From Antedon bifida (lineage: Eukaryota > Echinodermata > Crinoidea > Comatulida > Antedonidae), in the NCBI GenBank assembly GCA_963402885.1, contig OY727100.1:22601665-22665664 (forward strand): a DNA stretch of 64,000 nt, read 5' to 3'. The stretch's first letter is position 1. Each line of letters opens with the position of its first letter. A program made the position numbers and the translations under genes. Shown piece after piece: positions 5,741 to 62,848 of the stretch. The notes under the pieces were generated by a model. It was given only the letters and a program-made list of their open reading frames with translations, searched no databases and was not told where the DNA came from.

Positions 5741-5744
5741 TTTT

Positions 5745-6022: not shown

Positions 6023-6099
6023 GGATTTTTTTTTTTAAATACGCTATTTTCAAAATACTATTTATTATGCAATGATATTGCTATATAGGCGCATATATT

Positions 6100-9000
6100 G
6101 CGTTACCATCTTATAGACGTATAGTAACTATTTATGTCAAAAAATAAAAAGGTCGAAATTTGGCCTTTTTTCGAAAACATCCCTGTATTTTTTAAATACT
6201 GTTATTATGCAATAATATTGCTATACATGCACATACATTGCTTTATAATCATCTTATAGACGTATAGTAACCATTTATGTCAAAAAATAAAGAGGTCGAA
6301 ATTTTGCCATTTTTTGAAAAATCTCTGTACAGGAAAATTATCGAAAAATGGCCAATTTTCGACCTTTTTATTTTTTGACATAAATGGTTACTATAGCATA
6401 AAAAACATGCGCAGAGTCGAATAATGGGTTCTGCGCATGCCAATTGTGCTATAGTAACCAGTTTCATCGAAAAATAAAAAGGTCGAAAATTGGTCATTTT
6501 TTGAAAAAATCCCTGTACTATAGTACAGGAAAATTTTCGAAAAATGGCCAATTTTCGACCTTTTTATTTTTACACATAAATGGTTACTATAGCATAATAA
6601 ACATGCGCAGAGTCGAATAATGCGTTCTGCGCATGTCAATTGTGCTATAGTAACCAGTTTTATCGAAAAATAAAAAGGTCGAAAATTGGTCATTTTTTGA
6701 AAAAATCCCTGTACTATAGTACAGGGAAATTTTCGTAAAATGGCCAATTTTCGACCTTTTTATTTTTTGACATAAATGGTTACTATAGCATAATAAACAT
6801 GCGCAGAGTCGAATAATGCGTTCTGCGCATGTCAATTGTGCTATAGTAACCACTTTTGACATAAATGGTTACTATAGCATAATAAACATGCGCAGAGTCG
6901 AATAATGGGTTCTGCGCATGCCAATTGTGCTATAGTAACCAGTTTTATCGAGAAAAAAAAAGGTCGAAAATTGGTCATTTTTTGAAAAAATCCCTGTACA
7001 GGAAAATTATCGTAAAATGGCCAATTTTCGACCTTTTTATTTTTTGACATAAATGGTTACTATAGCATAATAAACATGCGCAGAGTCGAATAATGCGTTT
7101 TGCGCATGTCAATTGTGCTATAGTAACCACTTTTGACATAAATGGTTACTATAGCATAATAAACATGCGCAGAGTCGAATAATGGGTTCTGCGCATGCCA
7201 ATTGTGCTATAGTAACCAGTTTTATCGAAAAATAAAAAGGTCGAAAATTTGTCATTTTTAAAAAAATCCCTGTACTATAGTACAGGGAAATTTTCGTAAA
7301 ATGGCCAATTTTCGACCTTTTTATTTTTTGACATAAATGGTTACTATAGCATAATAAACATGCGCAGAGTCGAATAATGCGTTCTGCGCATGTCAATTGT
7401 GCTATAGTAACCACTTTTGACATAAATGGTTACTATAGCATAATAAACATGCGCAGAGTCGAATAATGGGTTCTGCGCATGCCAATTGTGCTATAGTAAC
7501 CAGTTTTATCGAAAAATAAAAAGGTCGAAAATTGGTCATTTTTTGAAAAAATCCCTGTACTATAGTACAGGAAAATTTTCGAAAAATGGCCAATTTTCGA
7601 CCTTTTTATTTTTTGACATAAATGGTTACTATAGCATAAAAAGCATGCACAGAGTCGAATAATGGGTTCTGCGCATGCCAATTGTGCTATAGTAACCAGT
7701 TTCATCGAAAAATAAAAAGGTCGAAAATTGGTCATTTTTTGAAAAAATCCCTGTACTATAGTACAGGAAAATTTTCGAAAAATGGCCAATTTTCGACCTT
7801 TTTATTTTTTGACATAAATGGTTACTATAGCATAATAAACATGCGCAGAGTCGAATAATGCGTTATGCGCATGTCAATTGTGCTATAGTAACCACTTTTG
7901 ACATAAATGGTTACTATAGCATAATAAACATGTGCAGAGTCGAATAATGGGTTCTGCGCATGCCAATTGTGCTATAGTAACCAGTTTTATCGAAAAATAA
8001 AAAGTTGAAAATTGGTCATTTTTTGAAAAAATCCCTGTACTATAGTACAGGAAAATTATCGAAAAATGGCCAATTTTCGACCTTTTTATTTTTACACATA
8101 AATGGTTACTATAGCATAATAAACATGCGCAGAGTCGAATAATGCGTTCTGCGCATGTCAATTGTGCTATAGTAACCACTTTTGAAATAAATGGTTACTA
8201 TAGCATAATAAACATGCGCAGAGTCGAATAATGGGTTCTGCGCATGCCAATTGTGCTATAGTAACCAGTTTTATCGAGAGAAAAAAAAGGTCGAAAATTG
8301 GTCATTTTTTTAAAAAATCCCTGTACTATAGTACAGGAAAATTATCGAAAAATGGCCAATTTTCGACCTTTTTATTTTTTGACATAAATGGTTACTATAG
8401 CACAATTGGCATGCACAGAGTCGAATAATGGGTTCTGCGCATGCCAATTGTGCTATAGTAACCAGTTTTATCGAAAAATAAAAAGGTCGAAAATTGGTCA
8501 TTTTTTGAAAAAATCCCTGTACTATAGTACAGGGAAATTTTCGTAAAATGGCCAATTTTCGACCTTTTTATTTTTTGACATAAATGGTTACTATAGCATA
8601 AAAAACATGCGCAGAGTCGAATAATGCGTTCTGCGCATGTAAATTGTGCTATAGTAACCACTTTTGACATAAATGGTTACTATAGCATAATAAACATGCG
8701 CAGAGTCGAATAATGGGTTCTGCGCATGCCAATTGTGCTATAGTAACCAGTTTTATCGAAAAATAAAAAGGTCGAAAATTGGTCATTTTTTTTAAAAATC
8801 CCTGTACTATAGTACAGGGAAATTTTCGTAAAATGGCCAATTTTCGACCTTTTTATTTTTTGACATAAATGGTTACTATAGCATAATAAACATGCGCAGA
8901 GTCGAATAATGCGTTATGCGCATGTCAATTGTGCTATAGTAACCACTTTTGACATAAATGGTTACTATAGCATAATAAACATGCGCAGAGTCGAATAATG

Positions 9001-11415
9001 GGTTCTGCGCATGTCAATTGTGCTATAGTAACCAGTTTTATCGAAAAATAAAAAGTTGAAAATTGGTCATTTTTTGAAAAAATCCCTGTACTATAGTACA
9101 GGAAAATTATCGAAAAATGGCCAATTTTCGACCTTTTTATTTTTTGACATAAATGGTTACTATAGCATAAAAAACATGCGCAGAGTCTAATAATGGGTTC
9201 TGCGCATGCCAATTGTGCTATAGTAACCAGTTTCATCGAAAAATAAAAAGGTCGAAAATTGGTCATTATTTGAAAAAATCCCTGTACAATAGTACAGAAA
9301 ATTTTCGAAAAATGGCAAATTTTCGACCCTTTTATTTTTTGACATAAATGGTTACTATAGCATAATAAACATGCGCAGAGTCGAATAATGGGTTCTGCGC
9401 ATGCCAATTGTGCTATAGTAACCAGTTTTGACATAAATTGTTACTATAGCATAATAAACATGCGCACAGTCGAATAATGGGTTCTGCGCATGCCAATTGT
9501 GCTATAGTAACCAGTTTTATCGAAAAATAAAAAGGTCGAAAATTGGTCATTTTTTTGAAAAAATCACTGTACTATAGTACAGGGAAATTTTCGTAAAATG
9601 GCCAATTTTCGACCTTTTTATTTTTTGACATAAATAGTTACTATAGCATAATAAACATGCGCAGAGTCGAATAATGCGTTCTGCGCATGTCAATTGTGCT
9701 ATAGTAACCACTTTTGACATAAATGGTTACTATAGCATAATAAACATGCGCAGAGTCGAATAATGGGTTCTGCGCATGCCAATTGTGCTATAGTAACCAG
9801 TTTTATCGAAAAATAAAAAGGTCGAAAATTGGTCATTTTTTTAAAAAATCCCTGTACTATAGTACAGGGAAATTTTCGTAAAATGGCCAATTTTCGACCT
9901 TTTTATTTTTTGACATAAATGGTTACTATAGCATAATAAACATGCGCAGAGTCGAATAATGCGTTATGCGCATGTCAATTGTGCTATAGTAACCACTTTT
10001 GACATAAATGGTTACTATAGCATAATAAACATGCGCAGAGTCGAATAATGGGTTCTGCGCAAGTCAATTGTGCTATAGTAACCAGTTTTATCGAAAAATA
10101 AAAAGTTGAAAATTGGTCATTTTTTGAAAAAATCCCTGTACTATAGTACAGGAAAATTATCGAAAAATGGCCAATTTTCGACCTTTTTATTTTTTGACAT
10201 AAATGGTTACTATAGCATAAAAAACATGCGCAGAGTCGAATAATGGGTTCTGCGCATGCCAATTGTGCTATAGTAACCAGTTTCATCGAAAAATAAAAAG
10301 GTCGAAAATTGGTCATTATTTGAAAAAATCCCTGTACAATAGTACAGAAAATTTTCGAAAAATGGCCAATTTTCGACCCTTTTATTTTTTGACATAAATG
10401 GTTACTATAGCATAATAAACATGCGCAGAGTCGAATAATGGGTTCTGCGCATGCCAATTGTGCTATAGTAACCAGTTTTGACATAAATTGTTACTATAGC
10501 ATAATAAACATGCGCACAGTCGAATAATGGGTTCTGCGCATGCCAATTGTGCTATAGTAACCAGTTTTATCGAAAAATAAAAAGGTCGAAAATTGGTCAT
10601 TTTTTGAAAAAATCACTGTACTATAGTACAGGGAAATTTTCGAAAAATGGCCAATTTTCGACCTTTTTATTTTTTGACATAAATAGTTACTATAGCATAA
10701 TAAACATGCGCAGAGTCGAATAATGCGTTCTGCGCATGTTAATTGTGCTATAGTAACCACTTTTGACATAAATGGTTACTATAGCATAATAAACATGCGC
10801 AGAGTCGAATAATGGGTTCTGCGCATGCCAATTGTGCTATAGTAACCAGTTTTATCGAAAAATAAAAAGGTCGAAAATTGGTCTTTTTTTGAAAAAATCA
10901 CTGTACTATAGTACAGGGAAATTTTCGAAAAATGGCCAATTTTCGACCTTTTTATTTTTTGACATAAATGGTTACTATAGCATAATAAACATGCGCAGAG
11001 TCGAATAATGGGTTCTGCGCATACCAATTGTGCTATAGTAACCAGTTTTATCGAAAAATAAAAAGGTCGAAAATTGGTCTTTTTTTGAAAAAATCACTGT
11101 ACTATAGTACAGGGAAATGTTCGAAAAATGGCCAATTTTCGACCTTTTTATTTTTTGACATAAATGGTTACTATAGCATAATAAACATGCGCAGAGTCGA
11201 ATAATGGGTTCTGCGCATGCCAATTGTGCTATAGTAACCAGTTTTATCGAAAAATAAAAAGGTCAAAAATTTGTCATTTTTTGAAAAAATCCCTGTACTT
11301 TTTAAAAACTTGTTATTATGCAATGTTATTGCTATATATGTGCATATATTGCTTTATAATCATCTTATAGACGTATAGTAACTATTTATGTCAAAAAAAA
11401 GGTCGAAATTTTGCC
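6100..11415. repeat. 5.3-kb satellite of alternating palindromic modules
   Basis: Two modules alternate. Module P (about 90 bp) runs from TAAATGGTTACTATAGCATA to TTGTGCTATAGTAACCA, with an inner palindrome CATGCGCAGA...TCTGCGCATG. Module Q (about 100 bp) runs from AAAAAGGTCGAAAATTGG to CCAATTTTCGACCTTTTT around the palindrome CCTGTACTATAGTACAGG. P+Q gives a unit of about 196 bp; P is sometimes doubled. By eye there are about 32 P and 20 Q modules. A 1050-bp higher-order unit is duplicated (8649-9698 and 9699-10,748). The minus-strand ORFs of 60-166 codons are translations of the repeat. Diverged modules persist to about 12,560. Confidence 0.95.
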
Positions 11416-25600: not shown

Positions 25601-28600
25601 TTTTTTAACCAATGTGGGTTGAATTGAATTGAATTGAAATATATATTTATACTGGGTCAAAGACTGGTCTCCCAGAGGGCCCAGTTATGATCAGTGGCTG
25701 TGATGTACTAATACACCGGGGTAACCCCCTACTCGTCTCGAAAGATGTACTAGGTTCTTTAAAGTGCACACGAGCTAGATGTGTACACTGGACCTACGGT
25801 TTATAGTCCTTATCCGAGAAGACTTGTTCTACCACCAGAACCATGGAGTGAGTGAGTCTCGAACCCCTGCCGATGTTATGGCTACGTAATTACGGTTCCA
25901 CTGTCTTAACCGCTCGGCCACTCACTCACAATCACCGCTCGGCCACTCACTAACTTTGAAGCACCCTCTGAATTAAATAATTGAAGACTGTATACAAAAA
26001 ATATTATATGCAAAAGTTTAATTTTAGACATACTGTACATCATGATGCAACACAGTTTATAATATTGTCTTTTTCACTTCTTGTAATGTATTGCAATGAA
26101 TGGTCTACTTTGAAAAGAATCAACTTAAACTAACTCTATAAAAACTTACCATTTTTAATATTGACTTTCTTTCAAATTCAGAATAGAAACCAAAATGTTT
26201 AAAATGAATCTGGCACTACTACACTCCTGTAATGTCACTCTGTTCCACCACACACACATGTGTTAATGCTACCCACCCTGTCGCTACAGTACTACCAAAC
26301 ATGTCTTGACAAGTATCAAATAAACAGTCCCTATTGGTCAGTTGTTTTCACATGGTATCTCAAGAGGGTAAACAATCTTCTAAATTATACCTCAAGCGGA
26401 GAGAATATAGCCTCTCCTATTGGTCAATGAGTTGCACCAGGGTCATTTTTTGTACACACAATGCCTAACTCAAAAAATTCAAGTTAAAATTTAAGTTTAG
26501 ATCCTCCAGCTTGGTATTGTTTGTGGTGTTTAATTCTCAGTTTTTTTCTCCTTTTGTCTCATTTTAGAATGAGAATACCTCTTTGTATTCTTTTGTTATT
26601 GTTCATCATCAATTGTTTAAATTGAATACTTCTGTTTTTATAGTTATTTCTAATTAATATTTCATCTGAATTACATCCTGTTTAGCCTTTGAATATTATT
26701 TGAAATCTTCCAAAATTTCCTTGGAGATACAGTTTAACCTCTTTCTGTAGGCCTATGTAATAAATTGATGTTAGCACGTTTATGCATAGTTTGCCTATAA
26801 AGTACATTGAGGTCATATATATTTATGTATGTAAATCATTTTCTTGAATTCATATCTAATGTGAAATTTGATCTTCGATCAGGTATTATAAATAGTGATG
26901 TCAACATTTTAATTTAAATATTGTATCATATTTCATAAATCTTTTGTGAATCCAAGATACTGTACATCATCTGCGCAGTAAGTTATCAAACTTTATGTGA
27001 CAAAAAAATGTGATGTATCCATATATGGACATGATGGTGTCATATCACTACCATATTTGGGTATATCACTACCATATTTAGGTATATCACTACCATATTT
27101 GGGTATATCACTACCATATTTGGGTATATCACTACCATATTTGGTCACATCACACCTTTTTTTTGTCAAACTAGTTATTTGATGATAGTGTACAGTAGAC
27201 ATGAGAACTTTAGATAGTAAATGATTTAGGAAATACATTAAAGAAAATGAATTCAATTTGTAAAATAATTATTCTACTGCAGGTACTGCAGTAACTTTAT
27301 TTTCTTTCTTTATTACTCTAGTATCTGCATGCATTTATTTAGCAAGTTTGTGAGTAATCACAATTTATCAATACCTCATACATTTTCCTGCAAAAGACAT
27401 ATGTAGTTACTGCAGTAAAATATTTGGACATGATCCCTAAATAAACAGACATTATTTTCAAATAATATTAATCTTTTTATAGCAAAGGATCCACAAACAA
27501 GGAAAAGATAAAAAATATGAACATTTCCAAAATTAAAACAAAGAAATATTTTGTAAAATGACCTGTAATTACTTCCTTCTCGTCCTTTAACATTTGAAAC
27601 AAATACAAGGAACTAAGTTAGCTATAATATTAATATTAATATGTAAAGTACTTATGCATTAAACTGTAATAAAGTAAACAATAAGAAACTAGAAACAAAA
27701 CTAAACAACGCTTTCTATCAGCAATTGACGACGACAAAGCAAACTGAAAACGCAAAATATAGTAAATATGTTTTTACTTCCTTGTATTAAAATGAAACAA
27801 TCGCATAATGGTTTAACTTTTAATAATAATAAATGAAAATTTATATAGCGCCGGTATCCTCCACCCATGTGGCGCTCATGGCGCTTTGTGCATTAACAAC
27901 GTGCGAGAACATCAGCGAATAGCGACGTCTTTAGGTTGGTCTTGAAACTGTTTAGACTAGTCGAGCATTTAACTGTTGCTGGTAAGCTGTTCCATACACT
28001 TGCGGCCGCAACGTAAAAAGATCTCTGACCCCACTGATTTTTCGCTCTACGCTCTTGAAGAAGGTTTTGTGACAATGATCGTAGGCCTCTGCGGGATGAT
28101 TCGTAACGATCCACAAGGTCAGATAAATAAGCAGGAGCACTGTCATTTAGGATCTTGAATACAAACAACGCAAGTTTGTACTTAATACGTTGTTGAACAG
28201 GCAACCAATGCAAATCCATCAGGACAGGAGTTATGTGAGCGTTTGATTTTGTATAAGTTACAATTCTAGCTGCCATATTTTGCAAGCGCTGCAAACGTTG
28301 TATTTGAGATTTTGGTATGCCAAACAACAAGGCATTACCAATGTCAATTTTAGAAGTGACAAATGAGTGTACAATCAATTCAGCTGTTTTCTTGTTAAGA
28401 TTACCGATTAAGCAATCATACTTAATAGCCCTGATGATGTTACAGCAGTTATAGAGGTCAAATTCAGCCCACAGTCAGAGTATACAAATATCAAATAAAA
28501 ATACATTTATTCATCAAATCACAATAAAATAATAGTATAATGTACAATGATTCAAGAAAATAATGAAATGGGATGTCTCTCAGGAAACCAGGAGGTTTGA

Positions 28601-32269: not shown

Positions 32270-33540
32270 AGAAAAGTGCACACCCGGGACTTTGAGCGAA
32301 ATGTAAAGATTATGATTATAAGATTTTAATTATGTGACTGTCTTTATTTTCTGGCCTGTATGTATAATGTCTTTTGGGGCCTATCGTAAATTGTGAATTT
32401 GTACACTTATTTTCTTGGTACTTGGTGGTTGTTCTCTTAAATACTCCACAAGCAAGTCTGACAACGAGGCAACACATTCAACTTTACACCCTTTACCATA
32501 GTAGCTTTTATTAGTACTAGTAATAATGCAGTATAATCTATAAACCTGATTATCTCATATCAATAATAGAAACAATTGACGTAATATTTTAATTCAGACA
32601 ATGATAAAGATGGTATAGTAATTAGTGGCATTATTCCATTTGTCTGAATTATACATAATTATTCGTAGGCCTAATTTAATTATTTGTTTTGGTAAAACCA
32701 AACATTTTCTAGCGTATTATACTTGTATGTGCTATACAGTACATCTAAAAATGAATGGATACAGGATAACATGAATGACTGTATAAATGTTAATATCAAT
32801 ATTATTATGGTATTTGTTTTTTTATCTGTTGACCTGTTCCGGCACGGTTCCTGTCCGGCGCCGGCAAATCAAATCGAACGTGAATGTTTCGTTTGCACGA
32901 CGTGAAATCATTGGACAACTTCTTGAAGCTTTGATTTTGACGCTTGTCGCGTGTCGCTTTGATTTGACGCTTGTCGCTTGTCGCTTCACGTGCAAATGGT
33001 CTGTGTGAAGTTTAGATTGTTGGCGAATTTATTATTTAAATATTCAAGATTCAAGAAATTTTATTGGTCCAATTTAAATGGACATTTGTTTTGCTTGGCA
33101 TAATTAAGACAATAAAACAACAAAGAAAAATACATCAAATTGCAAAAGGCAATGTTAAGATACTAAGTAGGCCTATATGCATAATTTTATGTTAAAATTG
33201 TCTGTTTAGTTTAATATGTGGCCCGCTTCTTTGGTGCTTAGTATTGTAAAACAATTGTGAATTTGTATCAACAAACAAAACTTTACACTTATCATAGTGG
33301 CTGTTAGTAGTACTAGTAATGAATTAAGTATAATGTTTTAATAGCAGTATAATCTATAAAACGGATTCTCTCATCAATAATAAAAACAATTGACTTAATA
33401 TTTTAATTCAGACAATAGGATAAAGACGGTAAAGTAATTAGAAATGCATTAATATTAAACATCACGTGACATTATTCCAATTGTCTGAATTATACATAAT
33501 TATTCGTATAGGCCTACTTCATTACTTGTTTTGGTAAAAT
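32270..33540. repeat. Upstream part of YWTD tandem unit 1
   Basis: This block recurs, in order, upstream of the second gene and again at 45.6-46.97 kb: a GGTTC(T/C)TGTCCGGCGCC segment with CAAATCAAATCGAACGTGAA (32,838), the 27-bp CGCTTGTCGCGTGTCGCTTC minisatellite (two copies, 32,938-32,990), a retroelement-like 3' tail with the inverse of GGACCAATAAAATTTCTTGA (33,045-33,090), TGTGGCCCGCTTCTTTGGTG (33,220) and a short MITE-like unit bounded by AATTCAGACAAT and ATTGTCTGAATT (33,402-33,492). Confidence 0.85.
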
Positions 33541-34125
33541 CAACCATTTCCAACGTATACTTTGTATGTGGTGTGTGTACAACAACCATTTCTAGCGTAT
33601 TACTTTGTATGTGCTGTGTGTACATCAACCATTTCCAACGTATACTTTGTATGTGACGTGTGTACATCAACCATTTCCAGCGTATTACTTTGTATGTGAC
33701 GTGTATACATCAACCATTTCCAACGTATACTTTGTATGTGCTGTGTGTACATCAACCATTTCTAGCGTATTACTTTGTATGTGCTGTGTGTACATCAACC
33801 ATTTCTAGCGTATTTCTTTGTATGTGACGTGTGTACATCAACCATTTCTAGCGTATTACTTTGTATGTGACGTGTGTACATCAACCATTTCTAGCGTATT
33901 ACTTTGTATGTGCTGTGTGTACATCAACCATTTCTAGCGTATTACTTTGTATGTGACGTGTGTACATCAATCATTTCTGGTGTATTACTTTGTATGTGAC
34001 GTGTGTACATCAACCATTTCCAGCGTATTACTTTGTATGTGACGTGTGTACATCAATCATTTCTAGTGTATTACTTTGTATGTGCTGTGTGTACATCAAC
34101 CATTTCTAGCGTATTACTTTACATA
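33541..34125. repeat. 43-bp minisatellite directly upstream of YWTD gene 1
   Basis: About 14 units of CATCAACCATTTCTAGCGTA then TTACTTTGTATGTGCTGTGT GTA; units alternate between TGTGCTGTG and TGTGACGTG at one position and between TCTAGCG and CCAACG at another. The array ends about 20 bp before the start codon of the gene and must therefore overlap its promoter or 5' UTR. The 67-codon ORF in it is a repeat translation. Confidence 0.92.
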
Positions 34126-34146: not shown

Positions 34147-37100
34147 ATGATTGTTTTTGCTTGGTTTTACCTGGTGATCAACTCCCATGTTTTGGGTGAT
34201 AGGCCTGCTACGGTCCTGCCAACCACGGATACTGGTAAATAATTATTAATTGTTAACGTGTGTGTTATTATTAGGGTGACGAACAATGTTTGATGGTTAC
34301 AAAATACTACGCTTACTTAGTAATGCGGATCCAATGCACAGTGATTGGATCCAATTTTGATTTATCATCTTTTAGTAAAAATGAATCTTTCTAACTATAG
34401 GCCTACTCTGCTTCAACAAGTTATCCCTCAATAAGACTTACTCTGGAACCCTACCACGGTGACTGATATGTAATAGTCTGTGACAGTTGCTATTACTCTA
34501 CACCGATATTCTAAAGCCCTAAAAAAATAACAGTTTAGTAGTAATAATAATAATAATTAATACTTATTATAACAGTAACATGTCAATGGCTGAAATGATG
34601 ATGAGCATGTTAATAATGTAATATTCTAGAAAAAAATCATCTGGTTTCAAATGATTTATGTTAAGCTATAGGCCTAGTAGCCGAAACGTAACAAAATAGT
34701 AAGTCTAACATGATAAAATAAATCATCTCTTTTTAATATAAGTAGTTTTCTTATTGTATTTTTAGAGATTGAAAGTAGATATTATAGTTATGATCCCGAA
34801 GGATGTGTTATGGCTTACAAACACTGGAAAGAACAAAGTAAGATGTGTTGTCATTGTATGATTATTACTTTTAATAATTTACTTACTCATTAACGTAAAT
34901 CAATATAGTGATTTATAAAAAAAATTCGATTTTGTATATCCATTAAATACTAATAAATTAATATTAAACTATACAGATTAATAGTTTTTTTAATAGGGTG
35001 ATTATTGTTTTTGTATATTACTGTATTACAATAAATTAATCGTTATTGTTTTTACAGGTGACATTATATTTGTGGGTGGTACATCTGGAATTTACATGTC
35101 AAATGTAAGTTCCAGTGACAGCTCACCTTTAAGGTTTACGGTAGCGATGGAGGATGTAGAGTTCACCCTACCCTACGCTCTTGGTTATGATGTAACCACA
35201 TCTACACTATACTGGTCTGACATCAACAAGGATACCATTGAACGATATTCATTTGATACTAACCAACATGAAGTGTTTGTGTCTAATGTAAAGCGTAAGA
35301 AAAAAATTATTTAGTCTGTTTATTTTTTATTTTTTACTTTAAAAAAATAGGTATCTTTATATTTTGGTAGCAATTGTTTAAATTGTGTATGCTTATTATA
35401 GTACAAATAGGCACTCTTAAGAATATTTTGATGGTTGAACCACATCCTAAATTGTTTTATTGTTAAATAATCATGAAGGAAAATTAGTCGTTAGGAAAGA
35501 GTTACGTCACAAAATCAACGCGTACTGTATAGAGACCACCTAAACATCTGCACATAAATGGTAATTATTATAGTCTATCAAAACAAAATTGAGAAAGATC
35601 ATAATTTCTCTGCCAAAGGCTCTCTGTCAAATAATATATATGTTGTTATTCCCCATACTCTGTCAGGTAAGCCTAATTTTCAAATCCATGTCTTCAAACA
35701 ATTAAATTGGGATTACACAAGTTTATAAGAGACAGTTTTATTACTGTAGATCTTCTAAAAGATTATTATGTATAGGTCTAACATACATTAATTACATGAT
35801 ACTCTAGTCTTATTTATGGTTTGAGGGGTTGGACATTTAAAATGTGTTTAAAGACGGGTTTGTCTTTATAAAACCCTATAGCATAACTATAGGCCTACAG
35901 TAGTTAGATTGTTTATAATAGTTTGTGATTACAACGTGTTTAATTTTTCATCCTTTTAAGGGATGTCTGGTTTAGCCGTTGATGGACCTGGGAAGAAGCT
36001 TTATTGGACAAATAGTGTCCAAAAACGAATTGAAGTAATAAATCTGGATGGAACAAACGGAAGAACACTGATTGGCACAGGATTAAGATGGCCACATGCA
36101 ATTAAGATAGACACAACTAACGGGTATGCCATTCTCTATTGGTACCGTTAAACAATATCTCTCCAATTAAGATCAACTAAGTTAACTTCACATATCCATA
36201 ATATCGATTATTACGTAAACGGGTGTTATTAATGCATTACAAAATAATTTACCTATTTTAATAATGAATTAGGAAATAAATAATTATTTATATTTTTTCA
36301 TACATTCAATATAAGAATTTAATTTCATTTAATAACTCAGTTTTAGTAATTACTAAGTGTTTCTCTGGTATGTGTGTGACTGTACACAGTAACTGTAAAT
36401 AACATACTATATTTAATTAGATACCTGTACTGGACTGATACAGGATTGGACACGATAGAGCGAGTGAAGTTAAATGACTTGAGTACAAGAACCGCTTTAG
36501 TGACAACTGGACTTAGTTTTCCAACCGGATTTGTTTTAGCAGTTCCCGGTAAGTTACAGTATGAGTTACAAATGTATGCAAGTTATATATTGTAGGCTAC
36601 TATTACACGTAGGTAGGCTAGTAGATTAAACCCTTTAATATTGAACAACACGATAATGTCTCAATAAGAAGTAAAGAATTACTCCGTGCTAAGACTAATT
36701 TGGTCATGTTTCATGCACACGTAAAATGTTACAATTATCTGTTATAATGTAATACCATCTTGTACTGTACCAACCAATTCCTTAAGTATTTACACCATTT
36801 ATAGACCTGTCAACACTTGCACTTTCATACAGTTTTAAAACTGCTCACGTACAATTTTACATGAGGACAAGGAGCACATCCATTATTATCAAAAATATTA
36901 AATTTAATCCATACACTATATTCACTACAGCTTTTATATATTTTAGATGGAAAGATGTATTGGTGTGATTTCAACAAGAAGGTGATCGAGGAAGCTAACC
37001 TTGACGGAACTAACAGAAGAACGATTATAACGCTTGCTGAAACGAATCCGTATAGAATTGACATTTATAGAAACTACCTGTACTGGACAGATTACTATGC

Positions 37101-37242
37101 TAGCATATATCGAGTTGATATCACAACTGGAATATCATCAACGCAAGGTAGCGATAGTCGACTTAATGATCCAGCAGACTTATATATTTTCAAAAGTAAA
37201 TATTCTATTTTAAAGTATTTAAAAGAAATTGATATTAATTAG
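34147..37242 (+). CDS. Secreted YWTD (LDLR class B) six-bladed propeller protein, paralog 1
   Basis: Exons: 34147-34234, 34766-34837, 35058-35294, 35961-36123, 36421-36548, 36947-37242; GT-AG, phases agree, 327 aa. A signal peptide MIVFAWFYLVINSHVLG is followed by a short N-terminal segment with one Cys and a single propeller. Blade motifs: LYWSD (104-108), LYWTN (146-150), LYWTD (189-193), MYWCD (233-237), LYWTD (274-278), with IIFVGGTSGIY near 56 closing the sixth blade. LDLR/LRP propellers are normally followed by an EGF module; here none is found and the frame ends 14 codons past an internal donor-like AAA/GTAAAT. AATAAA at 37,549 supports a local 3' end. YWTD propellers bind protein ligands through the top face, so secreted recognition is inferred. 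Ligand unknown. Confidence 0.9.
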
Positions 37243-38345
37243 AACTATACAATTGTAGTTTTTCTGTATACAAATGGATGTGTGGGCGAATGAAATGTTA
37301 GATAATGTTTCATAGAAATTGCCTACATTATTTCCCTAATATTAAAAGTAGGACTAGAATAGTATATAATAATGTTTGTGGTCAGTAACGACCATTTTGG
37401 AAGTAGAGATCTAATACTTGTGGACTCATAACACTCTTATAGACTAAAACAATGTAAGACAAATGGACTATTTTTTTTGTATCGCTGTTGTATTTTGAAA
37501 AAACGTTTAATTAAATTACAAATAATGATTGAAATTAAATAACATAAGAATAAAGAATAATATATAACAGTTGCATTTATTTAATAATAACAGTATAATA
37601 ATATTAATTGACAATGTGACAATACTACTAAGATTAAGAAAGAACACTTCTGAAAAAAAATGTTTATATTTGTTGTTTACTCTTTTAAGTACCAAAGTTA
37701 TATCATATTATATAAGAATTTGCTTTTTAATCGTAAGACTTAATTAATCGAAGCCTGTACTTTATTTTAAAGCGTGTTTATATTTGTTGTTTACTCCTTT
37801 AAGTACCAAAGTTATACCATATTATATAAGAAGTTTGCTTTTTAATCGTAAGACTTAATTAATCGAAGCCTGTACTTTATTTTAAAGCGTGTTTATATTT
37901 GTTGTTTACTCTTTTAAGTACCAAAGTTATACCATATTATATAAGAAGTTTGTTTTTTAATCGTAAGACCTAATTAATTGAAGCCTGTACTTTATTTTAA
38001 AATGTGTTTGGGTGTGTGTGTGGACTGGTCCTGTCACGTGTTAGCTTTACTGACGTAAAACTAACGTAATTCTATGAAATAACGACCGCAGCTCATATAT
38101 CTAGTCTAAGTACGTAACACTTTTTAGGAAAATGCTCCATTTGTACAGCGTATCGGTTCATCATGATTTGTTTAAATGCCTAACAAGTTGAAAATAATAT
38201 TATGTTGTCAGCTTCTTATGTTGTGTCTTGTTTAGTAATTAATTACTTTGCTCGTTAAGCGCGCTTCTCAACAGAAAAAAGAAGAATACATTATTTATAT
38301 CTGTTGCTCGAATTTCCCTCTCTTCACCGCTTAATCTAAAGGGTC
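37243..38345. repeat. 3' flank of YWTD gene 1 with three 116-bp tandem repeats
   Basis: After the presumed poly(A) signal, three copies of a 116-bp unit (about 37,660-38,005) carry TTTATATTTGTTGTTTACTC, AAGTACCAAAGTTATA and TTAATTAATCGAAGCCTGTA. The same three copies follow gene 2 (44,966-45,309). The remainder, to TTCTCAACAG at 38,274, is also duplicated. Confidence 0.85.
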
Positions 38346-38700
38346 TTTAAAACCTGTTCCAGCACGGTTCTTGTCCGGCGCCCGCAAATCAAATCGAACG
38401 TGAATAATGATTCGTTTGCACGACGTGAATTTGCTGGAGTTGCTCCTTGGGCGGCAACATTTTCAAGCTTCTATTCGATTAGACGCTTGACGCGTGTCGC
38501 TTCGATTTGACGCTTGTCGCGTGTCGCTTCGATTTGACACTTGTCGCGTGTCGCTTCGATTTGACGCTTGTCGCGTGTCGCTTCGATTTGACGCTTGTCG
38601 CGTGTCGCTTCGATTTGACGCTTGACGCGTGTCGCTTCGATTTGACGCTTGTCGCGTGTCGCTTCGATTTGACACTTGTCGCGTGTCGCTTCACGTGCAA
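38346..38700. repeat. Unit 2 start with eight-copy 27-bp minisatellite
   Basis: Begins CCTGTTCCAGCACGGTTCTT; 38,480-38,690 holds about eight units of TGACGCTTGTCGCGTGTCGC TTCGATT. The 27-bp period keeps several frames open on both strands (68-73 codons), with no gene evidence. Unit 1 has two copies and unit 3 about three. Confidence 0.9.
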
Positions 38701-38876
38701 ATGGTCAGTGTGAAGTTTAGATTGTTGGCGAATTTATATACTTAAGTATATTTATATATTATTTAAATATTCAAGATTCAAGACATTTTATTGGTCCAAT
38801 TTAAAATGGACATTTGTTTTGCTTGGCATAATTAAGACAATAAAACAACAAAGAAATATACATCAAATTCCAAAGG

Positions 38877-40085
38877 TAATGTTAAAATACTATGTATATG
38901 CCTATGTTAAAATACTATGTATATGCCTATGTTAAAATGCTGTGTATATGCCTATGTTAAAATACTATGTATATGCCTATGTTAAAATACTATGTATATG
39001 CCTATGTTAAAATGCTGTGTATATGCCTATGTTAAAATACTGTGTATATGCCTATGTTAAAATACTATGTATATGCCTATGTTAAAATACTATGTATATG
39101 CCTATGTTAAAATACTATGTATATGCCTATGTTAAAATGCTGTGTATATGCCTATGTTAAAATACTATGTATATGCCTATGTTAAAATACTATGTATATG
39201 CCTATGTTAAAATGCTGTGTATATGCCTATGTTAAAATGCTGTGTATATGCCTATGTTAAAATACTATGTATATGCCTATGTTAAAATACTGTGTATATG
39301 CCTATGTTAAAATGCTGTGTATATGCCTATGTTAAAATACTATGTATATGCCTATGTTAAAATACTGTGTATATGCCTATGTTAAAATACTGTGTATATG
39401 CCTATGTTAAAATACTGTGTATATGCCTATGTTAAAATACTGTGTATATGCCTATGTTAAAATACTATGTATATGCCTATGTTAAAATACTGTGTATATG
39501 CCTATGTTAAAATACTGTGTATATGCCTATGTTAAAATACTGTGTATATGCCTATGTTAAAATACTGTGTATATGCCTATGTTAAAATACTATGTATATG
39601 CCTATGTTAAAATACTGTGTATATGCCTATGTTAAAATACTGTGTATATGCCTATGTTAAAATACTATGTATATGCCTATGTTAAAATACTGTGTATATG
39701 CCTATGTTAAAATACTGTGTATATGCCTATGTTAAAATACTGTGTATATGCCTATGTTAAAATACTGTGTATATGCCTATGTTAAAATACTGTGTATATG
39801 CCTATGTTAAAATACTGTGTATATGCCTATGTTAAAATACTGTGTATATGCCTATGTTAAAATACTGTGTATATGCCTATGTTAAAATACTGTGTATATG
39901 CCTATGTTAAAATACTGTGTATATGCCTATGTTAAAATACTATGTATATGCCTATGTTAAAATACTATGTATATGCCTATGTTAAAATACTGTGTATATG
40001 CCTATGTTAAAATACTGTGTATATGCCTATGTTAAAATGCTGTGTATATGCCTATGTTAAAATACTATGTATATGCCTATGTTAA
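38877..40085. repeat. 25-bp satellite, about 48 copies
   Basis: Highly uniform units of GTTAAAATACTGTGTATATG CCTAT, varying mainly at ACTG/ACTA/GCTG. In unit 1 the matching position (about 33,150-33,195) has roughly one degenerate copy, and in unit 3 (46,435-46,520) three or four, so the expansion happened after the unit duplication. Confidence 0.95.
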
Positions 40086-40767
40086 AATTGTCTGTTTAGT
40101 TTAATATGTGGCCCGCTTCTTTGGTGCTTAGTATTGTAAAACAATTGTGAATTTGTATCAACAAACAAAACTTTACACTTATCATAATGGCTGTTAGTAG
40201 TACTAGTAATGAATTAAGCATAATGTTTTAATAGCAGTATAATCTATAAAACGGATTCTCTCATCAATAATAAAAACAATTGACTTAATATTTTAATTCA
40301 GACAATACGATAAAGATGGTATAGTAATTAGAAATGCATTAAACATCACGTGATATTCTATTCGTCTGAATTATACATATTGCTTAGTAATACTAGCCTA
40401 GTAATAATGCAATATAATCTATAAAACGGATTCTCTCATCAATAATAAAAACAATTGACTTAATATTTTAATTCAGACAATACGATAAAGATGGTATAGT
40501 AATTAGAAATGCATTAAACATCACGTGATATTCTATTCGTCTGAATTATACATATTGCTTAATAGTACTAGCCTAGTAATAATGCAGCATAATCTATAAA
40601 ACGGATTCTCTTATCAATAATAAAAACAATTGACTTAATATTTAAATTCAGACAATATGATAAAGATGGTATAGTAATTAGAAATGCATTATTAAACATC
40701 ACGTGACATTATTCCAATTGTCTGAATTATACATAATTATTCGTATAGGCCTACTTCATTACTTGTT
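40086..40767. repeat. Three tandem copies of a 170-180-bp repeat
   Basis: Copies start near 40,199, 40,385 and 40,566 and share AATCTATAAAACGGATTCTC, AACAATTGACTTAATATTTT, AATTCAGACAAT and AAACATCACGTGA. Unit 1 has one clear copy at 33,300-33,500 and unit 3 two (46,620-46,960). A CACGTG E-box occurs in each copy. Confidence 0.88.
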
Positions 40768-41440
40768 TTGGTAAAATCAACCATTTCCAACGTATACTTT
40801 GTATGTGCTGTGTGTACATCCACCATTTCTAACGTATACTTTGTATGTGCTGTGTGTACATCAACCATTTCTAGCGTATTACTTTGTATGTGCTGTGTGT
40901 ACATCAACCATTTCCAGTGTATTACTTTGTATGTGCTGTGTGTACATCAACCATTTCCAGTGTATTACTTTGTATGTGACGTGTGTACATCAACCATTTC
41001 TAGCGTATTACTTTGTATGCTGTGTGTACATCAACCATTTCCAACGTATACTTTGTATGTGCTGTGTGTACATCAACCATTTCCAACGTATACTTTGTAT
41101 GTGCTGTGTGTACGTCAACCATTTCTAGCGTATTACTTTGTATGTGACGTGTGTAAATCAACCATTTCCAGCGTATTACTTTGTATGTGACGTGTGTAAA
41201 TCAACCATTTCCAGCGTATTACTTTGTATGTGCTGTGTGTACATCAACCATTTCCAGCGTATTACTTTGTATGTGACGTGTGTAAATCAACCATTTCCAG
41301 CGTATTACTTTGTATGTGCTGTGTGTACATCAACCATTTCTAGTGTATTACTTTGTATGCTGCGTGTACATCAACCATTTCTAGTGTATTACTTTGTATG
41401 CTGCGTGTACATCAACCATTTCTAGTGTATTACTTTACAT
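40768..41440. repeat. 43-bp minisatellite directly upstream of YWTD gene 2
   Basis: Same repeat as at 33,541-34,125, about 15 units, again ending about 20 bp before the start codon. Unit variants are shuffled relative to gene 1, and some units are shortened (TTTGTATGCTGTGTG). ORFs of 95-140 codons are repeat translations. Confidence 0.92.
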
Positions 41441-41462
41441 ACTCAACTGAACTGAAGACAAA

Positions 41463-44400
41463 ATGATTGTTTTTGCTTGGTTTTACCTGGTGATCAACTC
41501 CCATGTTTTGGGGGATAGGCCTGCTACGGTCCTGCCAACCACGGATAATGGTAAATAATTATTAATTGTTAACGTTTGTGTTATTATTAGGGTGACGAAC
41601 AATGTTTGATGGTTACAAAATACTACGCTTACTTAGTAATGCGGATCCAATGCACAGTGATTGGATCCAATTTTGATTTATCATCTTTTAGTAAAAATGA
41701 ATCTTTCTAACTATAGGCCTACTCTGCTTCAACAAGTTATCCCTCAATAAGACTTACTCTGGAACCCTACCACGGTGACTGATATGTAATAGTCTGTGAC
41801 AGTTGCTATTACTCTACACCGATATTCTAAGCCCTAAAAAAAAACAGTTTAGTGGTAATAGTAATAATAATTAATACTTATTATAACAGTAACATGTCAA
41901 TGGCTGAAATGATGATGAGCATGTTAATAATGTAATATTCTAGAAAAAAATCATCTGGTTTCAAATGATTTATGTTAAGCTATATGCCTAGTAGCCGAAA
42001 CGTAGCAAAATAGTATGTCTAACATGATAAAATAAATCTCTTTTTAATATATTCGTTTTCTCATTGTATTTTTAGAGATTGAAAATGGAGATTATAGTTA
42101 TGATCCCGAAGGATGTGTTATGGCTTACAAACACTGGAAAGAACAAAGTAAGACGTGTTGTTATTGTATGATTATTACTTTAATAATTTACTTACTCATT
42201 AACGTAAATCAATATAGTGATTTATTAAAAAAATTCGATTTTGTATATCCATTAAATACTAATAAATTAATATTAAACTATACAGATTAGTAGTTTTGTT
42301 AACAGGGTGATATTGTATATTACTGTATTACAATAAATTAATCGTTATTGTTTTTACAGGTGACATTATATTTGTGGCAAACTTGTCTCCACCTGGAATT
42401 TACATGTCAAATGTAAGTTCCAGTGACAGCTCACCTTTAAGGTTTACGGTAGCGATGGAGGATGTAGAGTTCACCTCACCCCGCGCTCTTGGTTATGATG
42501 AATACACATCTACACTATACTGGTCTGACTTCAACACGGATACCATTGAACGATATTCATTTGATACTAACCAACATGAAGTGTTTGTGTCTAATGTAAA
42601 GCGTAAGAAAAAAATTATTTAGTCTGTTTATTTTTTATTTTTTACTTTAAAAAAATAGGTATCTTTATATTTTGGTAGCAATTGTTTAAATTGTGTATGC
42701 TTATTATAGTACAAATAGGCACTCTTAAGAATATTTTGATGGTTGAACCACATCCTAAATTGTTTTATTGTTAAATAATCATGAAGGAAAATTAGTCGTT
42801 AGGAAAGAGTTACGTCACAAAATCAACGCGTACTGTATAGAGACCACCTAAACATCTGCACATAAATGGTAATTATTATAGTCTATCAAAACAAAATTGA
42901 GAAAGATCATAATTTCTCTGCCAAAAGCTCTCTGTCAAATAATATATATGTTGTTATTCCCCATACTCTGTCAGGTAAGCCTAATTTTCAAATCCATGTC
43001 TTCAAACAATTAAATTGGGATTACACAAGTTTATAAGAGACAGTTTTATTACTGTAGATCTTCTAAAAGATTATTATGTATAGGTCTAACATACATTAAT
43101 TACATGATACTCTAGTCTTATTTATGGTTTGAGGGGTTGGACATTTAAAATGTGTTTAAAGACGGGTTTGTCTTTATAAAACCCTATAGCATAACTGTAG
43201 GCCTACAGTAGTTAGATTGTTTATAATAGTTTGTGATTACAACGTGTTTAATTTTTCATCATTTTAAGAGGTGTATGGTTTAGCCGTTGATGGACCTGGG
43301 AAGGAGCTTTATTGGACACATAGTGTCCAAAAACGAATTGAAGTAATAAATCTGGATGGAACAAACGGAAGAACACTGATTGGCACAGGATTAAGCTTGC
43401 CACATGCAATTAAGATAGACACAACTAACGGGTATGCCATTCTCTATTGGTACCGTTAAACAATATCTCTCCAATTAAGATCAACTAAGTTAACTTCACA
43501 TATCCATAATATCGATTATTACGTAAACGGGTGTTATTAATGCATTACAAAATAATTTACCTATTTTAATAATGAATTAGGAAATAAATAATTATTTATA
43601 TTTTTTCATACATTCAATATAAGAATTTAATTTCATTTAATAACTCAGTTTTAGTAATTACTAAGTGTTTCTCTGGTATGTGTGTGACTGTACACAGTAA
43701 CTGTAAATAACATACTATATTTAATTAGATACCTGTACTGGACTGATAGAGGATTCGACAAGATAGAGCGAGTGAAGTTAAATGACTTGAGTACAAGAAC
43801 CGCTTTAGTGACAACTGGACTTAGTGCTCCAACCGGATTTGTTTTAGCAGTTCCCGGTAAGTTACAGTATGAGTTACAAATGTATGCAAGTTATATATTG
43901 TAGGCTACTATTACACGTAGGTAGGCTAGTAGATTAAACCCTTTAATATTGAACAACACGATAATGTCTCAATAAGATCATGAAGTAAAGAATTACACCG
44001 TGCTAAGACTAATTTGGTCATGTTTCATGCACACGTAAAATGTTACAATTATCTGTTATAATGTAATACCATCTTTTACTGTACCAACCAATTCCTTAAG
44101 TATTTACACCATTTATAGACCTGTCAACACTTGCACTTTCATAAGTTTTAAAACTGCTCACGTACAATTTTACATGAGGACAAGGAGCACATCCATTATT
44201 ATCAAAAATATTAAATTTAATCCATACACTATATTCACTACAGCTTTTATATATTTTAGATGGAAAGATGTATTGGTGTGATTGGATGAAGAGGGTGATT
44301 GAGGAAGCTAACCTTGACGGAACTAACAGAAGAACGATTATAACGCTTTCTGAAACGAATCCGTATAGAATTGACATTTATAGAAACTACCTGTACTGGA

Positions 44401-44552
44401 CAGATTACTATGCTGGCATATATCGAGTTGATATCACAACTGGAATATCATCAACGCAAAGTAGCGATAGTCAACTTTACCCAACAGGCTTATATATTTT
44501 CAAAAGTAAATATTCTATTTTAAAGTATTTAAAAGAAATTGATATTAATTAG
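41463..44552 (+). CDS. Secreted YWTD (LDLR class B) six-bladed propeller protein, paralog 2
   Basis: Exons: 41463-41550, 42076-42147, 42360-42602, 43269-43431, 43729-43856, 44260-44552; GT-AG, same phases as paralog 1, 328 aa. Signal peptide identical to that of paralog 1; blade motifs LYWSD, LYWTH, LYWTD, MYWCD, LYWTD. Relative to paralog 1 I count 34 replaced residues, one 2-codon insertion (exon 3), one 1-codon deletion (exon 6) and only two synonymous differences, while introns differ by under 1% in most parts. Replacements fall mainly just after YWTD motifs and around the Pro starting each blade. AATAAA lies at 44,855. Open frame and splice sites are intact, so both copies are probably expressed proteins. 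Confidence 0.9.
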
Positions 44553-46040
44553 AACTATACAATTGTAGTTTTTCTGTATACAAATGGATGTGTGGGCGAA
44601 TGAAATGTTAGATAATGTTTCATAAAAATTGCCTAAATTATTTCCCTAATATTAAAAGTAGGACTAGAATAGTATATATGTTTGTGGTCAGTAACGACCA
44701 TTTTGGAAGTAGAGATCTAATACTTGTGGACTCATAACACTCTTATAGACTAAAACAATGTAAGACAAATTAACTATTTTTTTTGTATCGCTGTTGTATT
44801 TTGAAAAAACGTTTAATTAAATTACAAATAATGATTGAAATTAAATAACATAAGAATAAAGAATAATATATAACAGTTGCATTTATTTAATAATAACAGT
44901 ATAATAATATTAATTGACAATGTGACAATACTACTAAGATTAAGAAAGAACACTTCTGAAAAAAAATGTTTATATTTGTTGTTTACTCTTTTAAGTACCA
45001 AAGTTATATCATATTATATAAGAATTTGCTTTTTAATCGTAAGATTTAATTAATCGAAGCCTGTACTTTATTTTAAAGCGTGTTTATATTTGTTGTTTAC
45101 TCCTTTAAGTACCAAAGTTATACCATATTATATAAGAAGTTTGCTTTTTAATCGTAAGACTTAATTAATCGAAGCCTGTACTTTATTTTAAAGCGTGTTT
45201 ATATTTGTTGTTTACTCTTTTAAGTACCAAAGTTATACCATATTATATAAGAAGTTTGTTTTTTAATCGTAAGACCTAATTAATTGAAGCCTGTACTTTA
45301 TTTTAAAATGTGTTTGGGTGTGTGTGTGGACTGGTCCTGTCACGTGTTAGCTTTACTGACGTAAAACTAACGTAATTCTATGAAATAACGACCGCAGCTC
45401 ATATATCTAGTCTAAGTACGTAACACTTTTTAGGAAAATGCTCCATTTGTACAGCGTATCGGTTCATCATGATTTGTTTAAATGCCTAACAAGTTGAAAA
45501 TAATATTATGTTGTCAGCTTCTTATGTTGTGTCTTGTTTAGTAATTAATTACTTTGCTCGTTAAGCGCGCTTCTCAACAGGAACGTTTATTTGATTTTTA
45601 AAAAATAATTTACTTAATAGTGCCCGGATGTCGAAGAAATAATACCGAGACCTCATCGTTCCCGCTTGCGTCGCTGGGAACCACGAAAAGGGCACATCCG
45701 GGACAGAGTATTTGAGTGACTGTCTTTCTTTTTTGGCCTGTATGTATATGTAAGTGGTTCTTTTGGGGCCTATTGTACATATGATTCCACTTGTCTGAAT
45801 TATACATAATTTTTCGTAGGCCTACTTCATTATTTGTTTTTGTAAAATCAACCATTGTCTAGCGTATTACTTGTATGTGCTATACATCTAAAAATGAATC
45901 GACACAGGATACAATTTATGACTGTATACATTTTAATATCAATATTATATGGTTTTTTTAAAAAAGAAGAATACATTATTTATATCTGTTGCTCGAATTT
46001 CCCTCTCTTCACCGCTTAATCTAAAGGGTCTTTAAAACCT
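44553..46040. repeat. 3' flank of YWTD gene 2 and junction to unit 3
   Basis: 44,966-45,309 repeats the three 116-bp units. After TTCTCAACAG (45,580) about 380 bp appear that are absent at the matching place after gene 1 but resemble the upstream block at 32,280-32,830 (GGCACATCCGGGAC, TTGGCCTGTATGTATA, CTAGCGTATTACTTGTATGT). It therefore looks like a remnant of another unit start. Confidence 0.75.
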
Positions 46041-46970
46041 GTTCCAGCACGGTTCTTGTCCGGCGCCCGCAAATCAAATCGAACGTGAATAATGATTCGT
46101 TTGCACGACGTGAATTTGCTGGAGTTGCTCCTTGGGCCGGGCGGCAACATTTTCAAGCTTCTATTCGATTAGACGCGTGTCGCTTCGATTTGACGCTTGT
46201 CGCGTGTCGCTTCGATTTGACACTAGTCGCGTGTCGCTTTACGTGCAAATGGTCAGTGTGAAGTTTAGATTGTTGGCGAATTTATATACTTAAGTATATA
46301 CCTAATTTATTTATATATTATTTAAATATTCAAGATTCAAGACATTTTATTGGTCCAATTTAAAATGGACATTTGTTTTGCTTGGCATAATTAAGACAAT
46401 AAACAACAAGAAAAATACATCAAATTGCAAAGGTAATGTTAAAATACTATTTATGCCTATGTTAAAATACTGTGTATATGCCTATGTTAAAATGCTGTGT
46501 ATATGCCTACGTTAAAATACTGTTAAAGTCTGATTAATATGTGACCCGCTTCTTTTGTTGGCTATTATAAAACAATTGTGAATCTGTATCAACAAACACA
46601 ACTTTACATAGAGACCCTTAGCATAGTGGCTTTTAGTAGTAATAGTAATTATGCATTAACTGTGTAATGTTTTAATAGCAGCAGTATAATCTATAAAACG
46701 GATTCTCTCATAATAATAAAAACAATTGACTTAATATTTTAATTTAGACAATATGATAAAGATGGTATAGTAATTAGAAATGCATTAAACATCACGTGAT
46801 ATTCTATTCGTCTGAATTATACATATTGCTTAGTAGTAGGCCTACTAGCCTAGTAATAATGCAGTATAATCTATAAAACGGATTCTCTCATCAATAATAA
46901 AAACAATTGACTTAATAATTAAATTTAGACGATATGATAAAGATGGTATCGTAATTATAACTGCCTTTTT
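46041..46970. repeat. Third, gene-less partial YWTD unit
   Basis: Repeats the unit-start order: CCTGTTCCAGCACGGTTCTT, about three 27-bp units (46,170-46,240), the retroelement-like tail (46,330-46,390), three or four 25-bp units, TGTGACCCGCTTCTTTTGTT and two copies of the 170-bp repeat. It stops at about 46,970 before the 43-bp minisatellite; no third propeller exon was found. Confidence 0.85.
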
Positions 46971-61319: not shown

Positions 61320-62848
61320 ATGAAAATGATAAAAAGTGAACATTTTGTGACAATTAGTCTTGACCTGAATGAATGTGAAATTTGTCACCAATGTACTGGA
61401 GAGGAACTGGTGACATGCAAGGAGTGTTTCCAACCCGTTCTAGAAGAAACAATCAAAGAGGGCTTCAATGAACTAGTTGGCGTTGTCCATCAAGAACAGC
61501 TAGGCCACGAAGCTTGCTTCTCAAAAGCTCACCAAGTTCTCAACCAGGGACTTAAAAGTAACCGCAAGTTATCAACAGACAGCGTAACATCTCAACTTAA
61601 GGGCCTTCTGGATGGAAAGTTTCAGCAAATTATAAAATATGCACGAAACGAAGGAAATTTAAGTGTCCCTCAACCTCTAATGGAAGTGAAGAGTACGCCA
61701 TGTTCTCGAACTAGTAGCCCGCTCAGAGTTTCTAACGCACGATTTGATCATGCTACTAAACGAAAATGCAATAGTGATGAAAATGTTGCCTTAAGACGAG
61801 GTAGAAATCCGGCCCTTGCGAAGGGATCTACAATTTATCGCGAGAAATATGAAGGAATAACGAACGATATAAGAAACGATAAATCAACAAAAGTTGAACA
61901 TGCAATAAATGATGAAAATGTGAAAATGGCCGATCAAAATAAAGTTAAAGAATCGTACTCACATGAACCTAAATTTGTCAAGACGAACCACAGTGCTAGC
62001 TCTTGCCATCATAGACAGTCTGGTAATGAATGTGCAACTGGATACACTATTGGAATTCCATCAGATAGGTTTGTTTATTTACCCTGCGAACATCAGTATG
62101 TGAGTGAAGGATGGACTGTTGATGACCTGGTGTGTGATGTTTGTGGCCATCATCATCATCATCATCCGCGAATAAACCAATCGGATTTACTTATAAGCAG
62201 CCAATCGGATTCAAGTACTGATACTGATTTTGATGATTTATTACCTGTTCTGAATTACGAAGCAAAAGGTTCAAAGGTCACCACCAAAGAAGATGAACAT
62301 AAAAAAGATAAACATTTTAAGATTTATACGGATGAAGAGTGTAAGATTAGTATAAATATAATTATTTTTTATTATATTATTATAAAACACCCGTATTTAT
62401 TATTTTAAAAAATGGAAATAACATTGCTCATGACTGTCAATTTAAAATTTAATCATCATCATCAAAATAAATCATAATTGAAGTATATTTGTGTACTGTT
62501 TGGTAGAGCTCTATCTACGCTATCAAACTTTATGTGAGAAAAAAATGTGATGTGCCCATATATGGACATGATGATGTCATATCATTACCATATTTGTGCA
62601 CATCACACTTTGTTTTGTCAAACTAGTTTGATAGTGTGGACAGAGCTTTATTAAACTACAGAAAGTAAACATATAAATGAATTCTGTCTTAGCGTACTGC
62701 TTTACTAACTAAATTACTTACTGAATGTAGTTCATGTAAAAGTCAAAATAAACAAAATGTATCTGTAAATTTATCTTTTTTTTAGTGAAACACTCAAGTC
62801 TGGAACAACTGTCTGACATATTGGAAACAATAAAGTTAAAGTGTACAG
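61320..62848 (+). CDS. Unrecognised Cys/His-rich protein, partial (3' end outside or not found)
   Basis: Exon 61,315-62,340 (ATG at 61,320) then 62,786-62,848, phase-consistent, about 361 codons before the next donor. The N-terminus has CEICHQCTGEELVTCKEC (Cys 19, 22, 25, 34, 37), a possible small zinc-binding unit. A Ser/Asn/Lys-rich, probably disordered middle (about 120-245) follows, then LPCEHQYVSEGWTVDDLVCD VCGHHHHHH (about 257-285), a second CxxC with a His run, and an acidic C-terminal part. No signal peptide or membrane segment. The donor after exon 2 is either a GC donor (G/GCAAGT) or GTAATG four bases on, at the edge of a MITE. I do not recognise the family; zinc binding is inferred only from Cys/His spacing. 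Confidence 0.75.
62505..62648. mobile_element. Palindromic MITE copy 10
   Basis: GAGCTCTATCTACGCTATCA at the left, TTTGATAGTGTGGACAGAGC at the right, one ATATCATTACCATATTTGTG unit. Lies in the intron between the two visible coding exons of the Cys/His-rich gene. Confidence 0.9.

Follow-up and report, generated by a model that had tools for sequence, protein, structure and literature searches.

Why should two neighbouring genes differ almost entirely by amino-acid replacements? This question is raised by a 64,000-nucleotide stretch of the genome of the crinoid Antedon bifida (the window; C13:22601665-22665664), which holds gene A (34147-37242, 327 residues) and gene B (41463-44552, 328 residues), each with six exons, GT-AG introns and uninterrupted reading frames. 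Gene A matches the YWTD family PF00058 (E 2.8e-24; 85.7 bits against a curated cut-off of 21), and the six-bladed fold is that of the YWTD or low-density lipoprotein (LDL)-receptor class B propellers. Genes A and B stand in tandem and belong to a large family of crinoid YWTD beta-propellers, each made of a single six-bladed domain. Our analysis indicates that this is probably a secreted propeller family in which diversifying selection acts on a binding face and loop variants are shuffled between copies.

Replacement and silent changes in genes A and B

In a codon alignment of the two genes, 34 of the 326 codons were replaced and 2 were changed silently (GGT/GGG in exon 1 and ATC/ATT in exon 6), with two in-frame indels, in exact agreement with a count made by eye in an earlier reading of the letters alone (the original prediction). 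That reading had also remarked on replaced codons with two changed bases; 24 replaced codons differ at one base, 8 at two and 2 at three. It had expected a large silent share under neutral divergence; about 25% of the changed codons would then be silent, compared with the 2/36 observed (p 0.003). By path-averaged counting the silent steps numbered 6.3, mostly inside multi-hit codons, and because of these hidden steps the pairwise ratio of nonsynonymous to synonymous rates (dN/dS, or omega) by the Nei-Gojobori method was 1.9-2.6, and not the value of 6 or more suggested by the raw counts. Silent divergence between the two genes nevertheless lay below replacement divergence. The pairwise dN/dS test proposed with the original prediction was borderline for the whole gene by maximum likelihood (omega 2.1, p 0.08), and gave an omega of 3.2 (p 0.023) without codons 60-62. 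Extra changes that were not forced occur in four codons, of which these make up three; they adjoin a 6-base indel, and their changes look like a single complex event.

Noncoding DNA served as the neutral yardstick. Substitutions separate genes A and B at 46/981 exon sites, 25/2097 intron sites and 4/480 sites of the near flanks. The neutral rate around exons 3-6 is low, with 5/1360 differing sites in introns 3-5 compared with 41/821 in the exons themselves. Introns 1-2 differ at 20/737 sites (p 7e-6 versus introns 3-5), and the non-repeat DNA 3' of the genes is close as far as position 38473 (4/414, 0/265 and 0/193) and more diverged beyond it (5/184, then 24/132). This uneven divergence of introns and spacer indicates a mosaic history of the two units. 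The segment 34515-35010, aligned with 41831-42312 and containing exon 2, holds 19 of the 20 substitutions in introns 1-2; its divergence is several-fold above that of its surroundings, as if it were of different origin.

Variation on one half of the propeller and across the family

In the structure predicted by AlphaFold for a relative, the half that bears the LRP5/6 ligand-binding face contains 28 of the 31 variable propeller positions, with 28/133 positions variable in this predicted top half versus 3/115 in the other (p 5e-6). Since the whole-gene test was borderline, we also divided the codons by structural half and anchored the rates on introns. The partitioned joint codon model gave an omega of 5.3 for the top half (p 8.7e-5) and 0.73 for the remainder, and the top-half value was 11 with introns, or 37 with introns and flanks, as the anchor. 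In conjunction with the intron yardstick and the recurrence in part of the family described below, these results support the diversifying selection claimed in the original prediction. When 40-60 codons were placed under strong selection in simulations of point substitution, multi-hit codons came out about as numerous as observed, at least two triple-hit codons arising in just 7-13% of runs with 60 selected codons; when all 132 top-half codons were equally selected, the observed multi-hit codons were reached in no run. Block import as the sole source of the multi-hit codons was rejected, as point substitution at 40-60 selected codons gives comparable numbers.

The genome (315.6 Mb, 27 contigs) was searched with the relative P0001 as query, and 141 of 306 candidates were scored. 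Among the matches listed, at least 54 last-exon places (beginning at query position 155-175 and reaching 255 or beyond), some of which may be decayed copies or membrane-bound relatives, were found on ten contigs, C7-C16, and arrays of the family lie on C15, C16, C9 and C13. That P0001 itself is an orthologue of genes A and B was not supported, as its last-exon part is closer to C13:20821676, at 73%, than to these two genes, at 68-69%. Exon 6, compared in 30 loci, occurred in 26 distinct forms, in which the scaffold residues are mostly fixed and variation falls at model residues 184-187, 205-212, 224-228, 241 and 249-252, all assigned by the model to the top half. Within each of the C9/C15/C16 groups the copies share an identical or almost identical tail, and in several C13 copies the tail is shortened or of another sequence. 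In the C15 array, the ratio of nonsynonymous to synonymous differences per site (pN/pS) in exon 6 was 2.9 for the top half and 0.24 for the bottom half, with a bootstrap interval of 0.001-0.131 for the C15 excess. In these respects the family resembles one diversified in the germline for recognition, with its many copies, its variable sites on one exposed half and its conserved scaffold, and, for the A/B top half, with replacement above the neutral rate.

For comparison within the family, 16 pairs were hand-picked from the best BLAST pairs among the 30 loci; members are shared, so the pairs are not independent, and noncoding windows below 70% identity were excluded. Replacement divergence exceeded noncoding divergence at p <0.05 in 8 of these 16 pairs, A/B included. 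The same pattern was detected in two of three further full-length pairs: L010/L012, with 67/973 exon versus 57/2265 intron differences (p 2e-8; L012 is decayed), and L050/L051, with pN 5.9%, pS 5.1% and noncoding divergence 1.8% (p 1e-8). The excess of replacements recurs in part of the family. At greater distances exons are less diverged than introns, for example 12% versus 21% between gene A and L014, as constraint on the scaffold would predict.

Conflicts between loops and flanking DNA were observed among the copies. The loop TAC-AAC-AGA-AAG is found in L023, L028 and L040, and TAC-GCC-GCT-GGG in L029 and L030, whereas by their flanking DNA L023 and L029 belong together, as do L028, L030 and L040. 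On C16, the exon 6 differences between L049 and L046 are confined to one 99-base span, within which the third loop of L049 and its silent neighbours resemble L032 and L044 on C9. Compatibility of nearby sites was above that of permuted data in C15 (p 0.0005) and in C9/C16 (p 0.0055). In both groups the exon data reject the flank tree and the flank data reject the exon tree, with p values in the approximately unbiased test of 0.017 and 0.0035, and of 0.0068 and 0.0004, from few sites and with long flank branches of L030, L042 and L044. Short-tract gene conversion may be the cause of this conflict between exon and flank trees.

Several copies have features of their own. L023-L025, at C15:13951869, 13974385 and 13996901, are spaced by exactly 22,516 bases and are identical, or differ by one mismatch and one gap, across 3.27 kb, which reflects either a very recent duplication or an assembly effect. 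L012 (C13:20975000-20984999) is the decayed member of a second tandem pair, in which exon 2 carries a stop and the frame of exon 3 is broken (3118-3697); its last exon is L031 of the pair set and the exon-6 set. In L017 (C13:10760000-10769999), positions 4297-9538 hold many repeated fragments that resemble only the beginning of exon 3 and are separated by stops.

Proposed selection on a binding face and the alternatives

We propose that selection favours residue changes in the D-A and B-C loops of the propeller half that corresponds to the LRP5/6 ligand-binding face, and that the scaffold and the opposite half stay conserved. The variable face would meet a diverse or co-evolving ligand, and selection would fix or keep loop changes on it; short-tract gene conversion would then carry loop variants among copies, and repeat-rich arrays would multiply the copies. 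By eye, the proteins of genes A and B have a signal peptide and no membrane span, which suggests that they are probably secreted. In A. mediterranea, the relatives P0125 and P0126 have, by eye, further parts beside the propeller, a hydrophobic span and tyrosine-rich cytoplasmic tails, so soluble forms may exist alongside membrane receptors. The proposed mechanism and such possible forms would suit an immune repertoire, and recognition of microbes or parasites is a role to which we give slightly less than even weight. A little more tentatively, dozens of soluble YWTD propellers may serve crinoids as a germline-encoded, diversified recognition system, in which a constant scaffold carries hypervariable loops on one face and short gene conversion reassorts loop cassettes among genes, both tandem and dispersed, to yield combinatorial diversity; we know of no precedent for combinatorial recognition diversity on this fold. 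The main rival to the immune role is gamete or self/non-self recognition, in which the variable face would meet a partner on conspecific gametes or tissues. It was named in the original prediction and would leave the same sequence pattern; however, dozens of copies on ten contigs and relatives with tyrosine-rich tails appear to fit a repertoire better, and we consider the gamete or self role somewhat unlikely.

A number of results weigh against the proposed selection on one face. Besides the borderline whole-gene ratio, no significant excess of replacement over noncoding divergence was found in 8 of the 16 chosen pairs, two of which are near-identical copies. L026/L027 showed zero exon changes versus 18/1884 noncoding changes; in the older pairs L033/L049 and L032/L043, pS was 0.146 and 0.206 versus pN of 0.089 and 0.104, respectively; and the full-length pair L052/L053 gave pN 1.6%, pS 1.0% and noncoding divergence 0.9% (p 0.11). 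For exon 6, the top-half pN/pS was 0.92 in C9/C16 and 0.81 in all copies (bottom half, 0.24 and 0.23, respectively); taken by group, therefore, omega exceeds 1 in young copies, but not in the whole set. No recombination signal emerged when the 26 copies were analysed jointly (p 0.27). Both states of an A/B difference recur in four other paralogues for 15/46 exon differences versus 3/17 noncoding ones, which is not a significant difference (p 0.35). Finally, the same half was the more variable one in 40 other YWTD proteins (entropy 2.17 versus 1.57), so the top-half bias is in part ordinary tolerance; height on the propeller still contributes beyond general YWTD variability (p 5e-4).

The greater variability of that half in other YWTD proteins is what would be expected of relaxed constraint, under which the loops tolerate any residue and drift. 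Drift cannot surpass the neutral rate, however, and with a top-half omega of 5.3, or 11-37 relative to introns and flanks, we regard this explanation as very unlikely. Clustering of the exonic changes (28/45 neighbour gaps of 9 bases or fewer, compared with 15.8 expected) might also point to exon-directed hypermutation or a mutational hot spot, but the silent changes are too few, no type of base change is dominant, the changes are confined to one protein half, and the simulated point substitutions under strong selection match the multi-hit codons fairly well; such a mechanism seems extremely improbable. The 97% DNA identity of the genes over 3116 aligned bases could suggest that their tandem arrangement is a product of the assembly, made from two alleles or by error. 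The array lengths differ, though, the spacers are distinct and a third module is present, and errors would not stay in frame and on one protein half; with the copies in distinct repeat units and the pattern seen elsewhere in the family, an assembly mixture is highly unlikely, and the case for selection would hold even if A and B were alleles.

Retention of old diversity is a further alternative, which we judge unlikely. Here old alleles or paralogue variants would be kept under balancing selection, with introns and other sites homogenized by recombination or conversion, and selection would preserve variants rather than drive a burst of new ones. The mosaic units, with their uneven introns and spacer, agree with this explanation, as does L050/L051, in which silent exon divergence exceeds noncoding divergence as if old exon patches had been kept or imported. 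Furthermore, for every one of the 46 A/B exon differences, one or both states are present in the four other paralogues. On the other hand, the dense A/B replacements are interspersed with just 2 silent codon differences, which would require the homogenizing tracts to be very short.

If selection on the binding face with exchange of loops is the true explanation, a crinoid has turned an LDL-receptor-type propeller into a recognition repertoire of many copies with one variable face. Crinoids are the sister group of all other living echinoderm classes. How loops can change when introns only a few bases from them remain nearly identical becomes a testable question, and the family supplies defined sites and natural loop swaps, such as L046 versus L049, for binding tests. 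In searches of open-licence papers, we found no description of a crinoid YWTD family of this kind.

Among known systems, LRP5 and LRP6 (also LDLR, LRP4 and nidogen) differ from genes A and B, which code for a single propeller, lack the EGF, LDLa and membrane portions found in those proteins, and are multicopy and loop-diversified. Receptors of the LRP5/6 type have several propeller-EGF units, a membrane span and a tail, whereas the products of genes A and B have 327 and 328 residues with one propeller, Pfam finds no EGF domain in gene A, and no further exons of the relatives were found in the window at E 0.05. Two other systems differ in fold: Sp185/333 is not a propeller, and tachylectin-2 is not a YWTD protein. 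Sp185/333 of the purple sea urchin is reported to consist of tandem immune genes framed by short repeats, with duplicated units of about 7 kb and proposed conversion (PMC5103432). Genes A and B resemble it in all these respects, but have six exons, whereas Sp185/333 is described as a two-exon gene with an element mosaic in exon 2 (PMC5103432). The coral tachylectin-2 locus is presented as a putative immunity gene of an invertebrate, with positive selection and highly diverse amino acids (PMC2880987). In the process named ASSET in snake venom genes, exon segments are switched on a conserved fold, introns remain similar and the surface is altered, by a mechanism that the source states is not understood (PMC2711939). 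The A/B family is not one of venom toxins, and its inter-locus loop sharing gives a lead to conversion.

Gene units and other features of the window

Both genes lie on the plus strand. Exon 1 of gene A (34147..34234) holds the start codon, a signal peptide (by eye) and a GT donor, and is followed by exons 2 (34766..34837), 3 (35058..35294), 4 (35961..36123), 5 (36421..36548) and 6 (36947..37242, to the stop codon), ending in a tail of the kind that also ends P0001. The exons of gene B are located at 41463..41550, 42076..42147, 42360..42602, 43269..43431, 43729..43856 and 44260..44552, the last again running to the stop codon. By eye, the final coding stretch of each gene (37196-37242 and 44506-44552) passes the donor-like AAAAGTAAAT into a short tail, and since P0001 has a similar terminal tail, a membrane part may have been lost.

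A 43-bp minisatellite stops 26 bases ahead of each start codon, with 13.6 copies at 33539..34120 before gene A and 15.6 copies at 40776..41436 before gene B. The 3' repeat module of unit A (37661..40735) contains arrays of 115 bp (x3), 27 bp (x8), 25 bp (x48) and 175 bp (x2.9), and that of unit B (44967..46523) contains arrays of 115 bp (x3), 27 bp (x2.6) and 25 bp (x3.6); the 25-bp minisatellite thus has 48 copies in unit A (38879-40088) and fewer than four in unit B (46436-46523). Upstream of unit A, a third 3' module without a YWTD gene (32517..33518) is about 80-95% like the other two and looks like the leftover of a third unit. With eight crinoid queries at E 0.05, no YWTD exons were detected in the window outside genes A and B, nor were any found in the 9.9 kb flanking it on each side (L018 and L019).

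Elsewhere in the window, a single-copy-looking conserved gene at 61320-62345 is 97% identical (331/343 aligned) to a PF06937 relative in A. mediterranea. The 21-bp tandem unit ATATCACTACCATATTTGGG and its variants occur at 13003, 27042, 49339, 50364, 55924 and 63644, with some flanks in common, and perhaps represent a mobile element with an internal repeat. A nested satellite with periods of 89, 196 and 285 bp occupies 6045-11299 and yields several open reading frames of at least 100 residues without other gene evidence. On the minus strand, 27893-28378 encodes a 161-residue open reading frame, which we take to resemble the end of a long interspersed nuclear element (LINE) reverse transcriptase.
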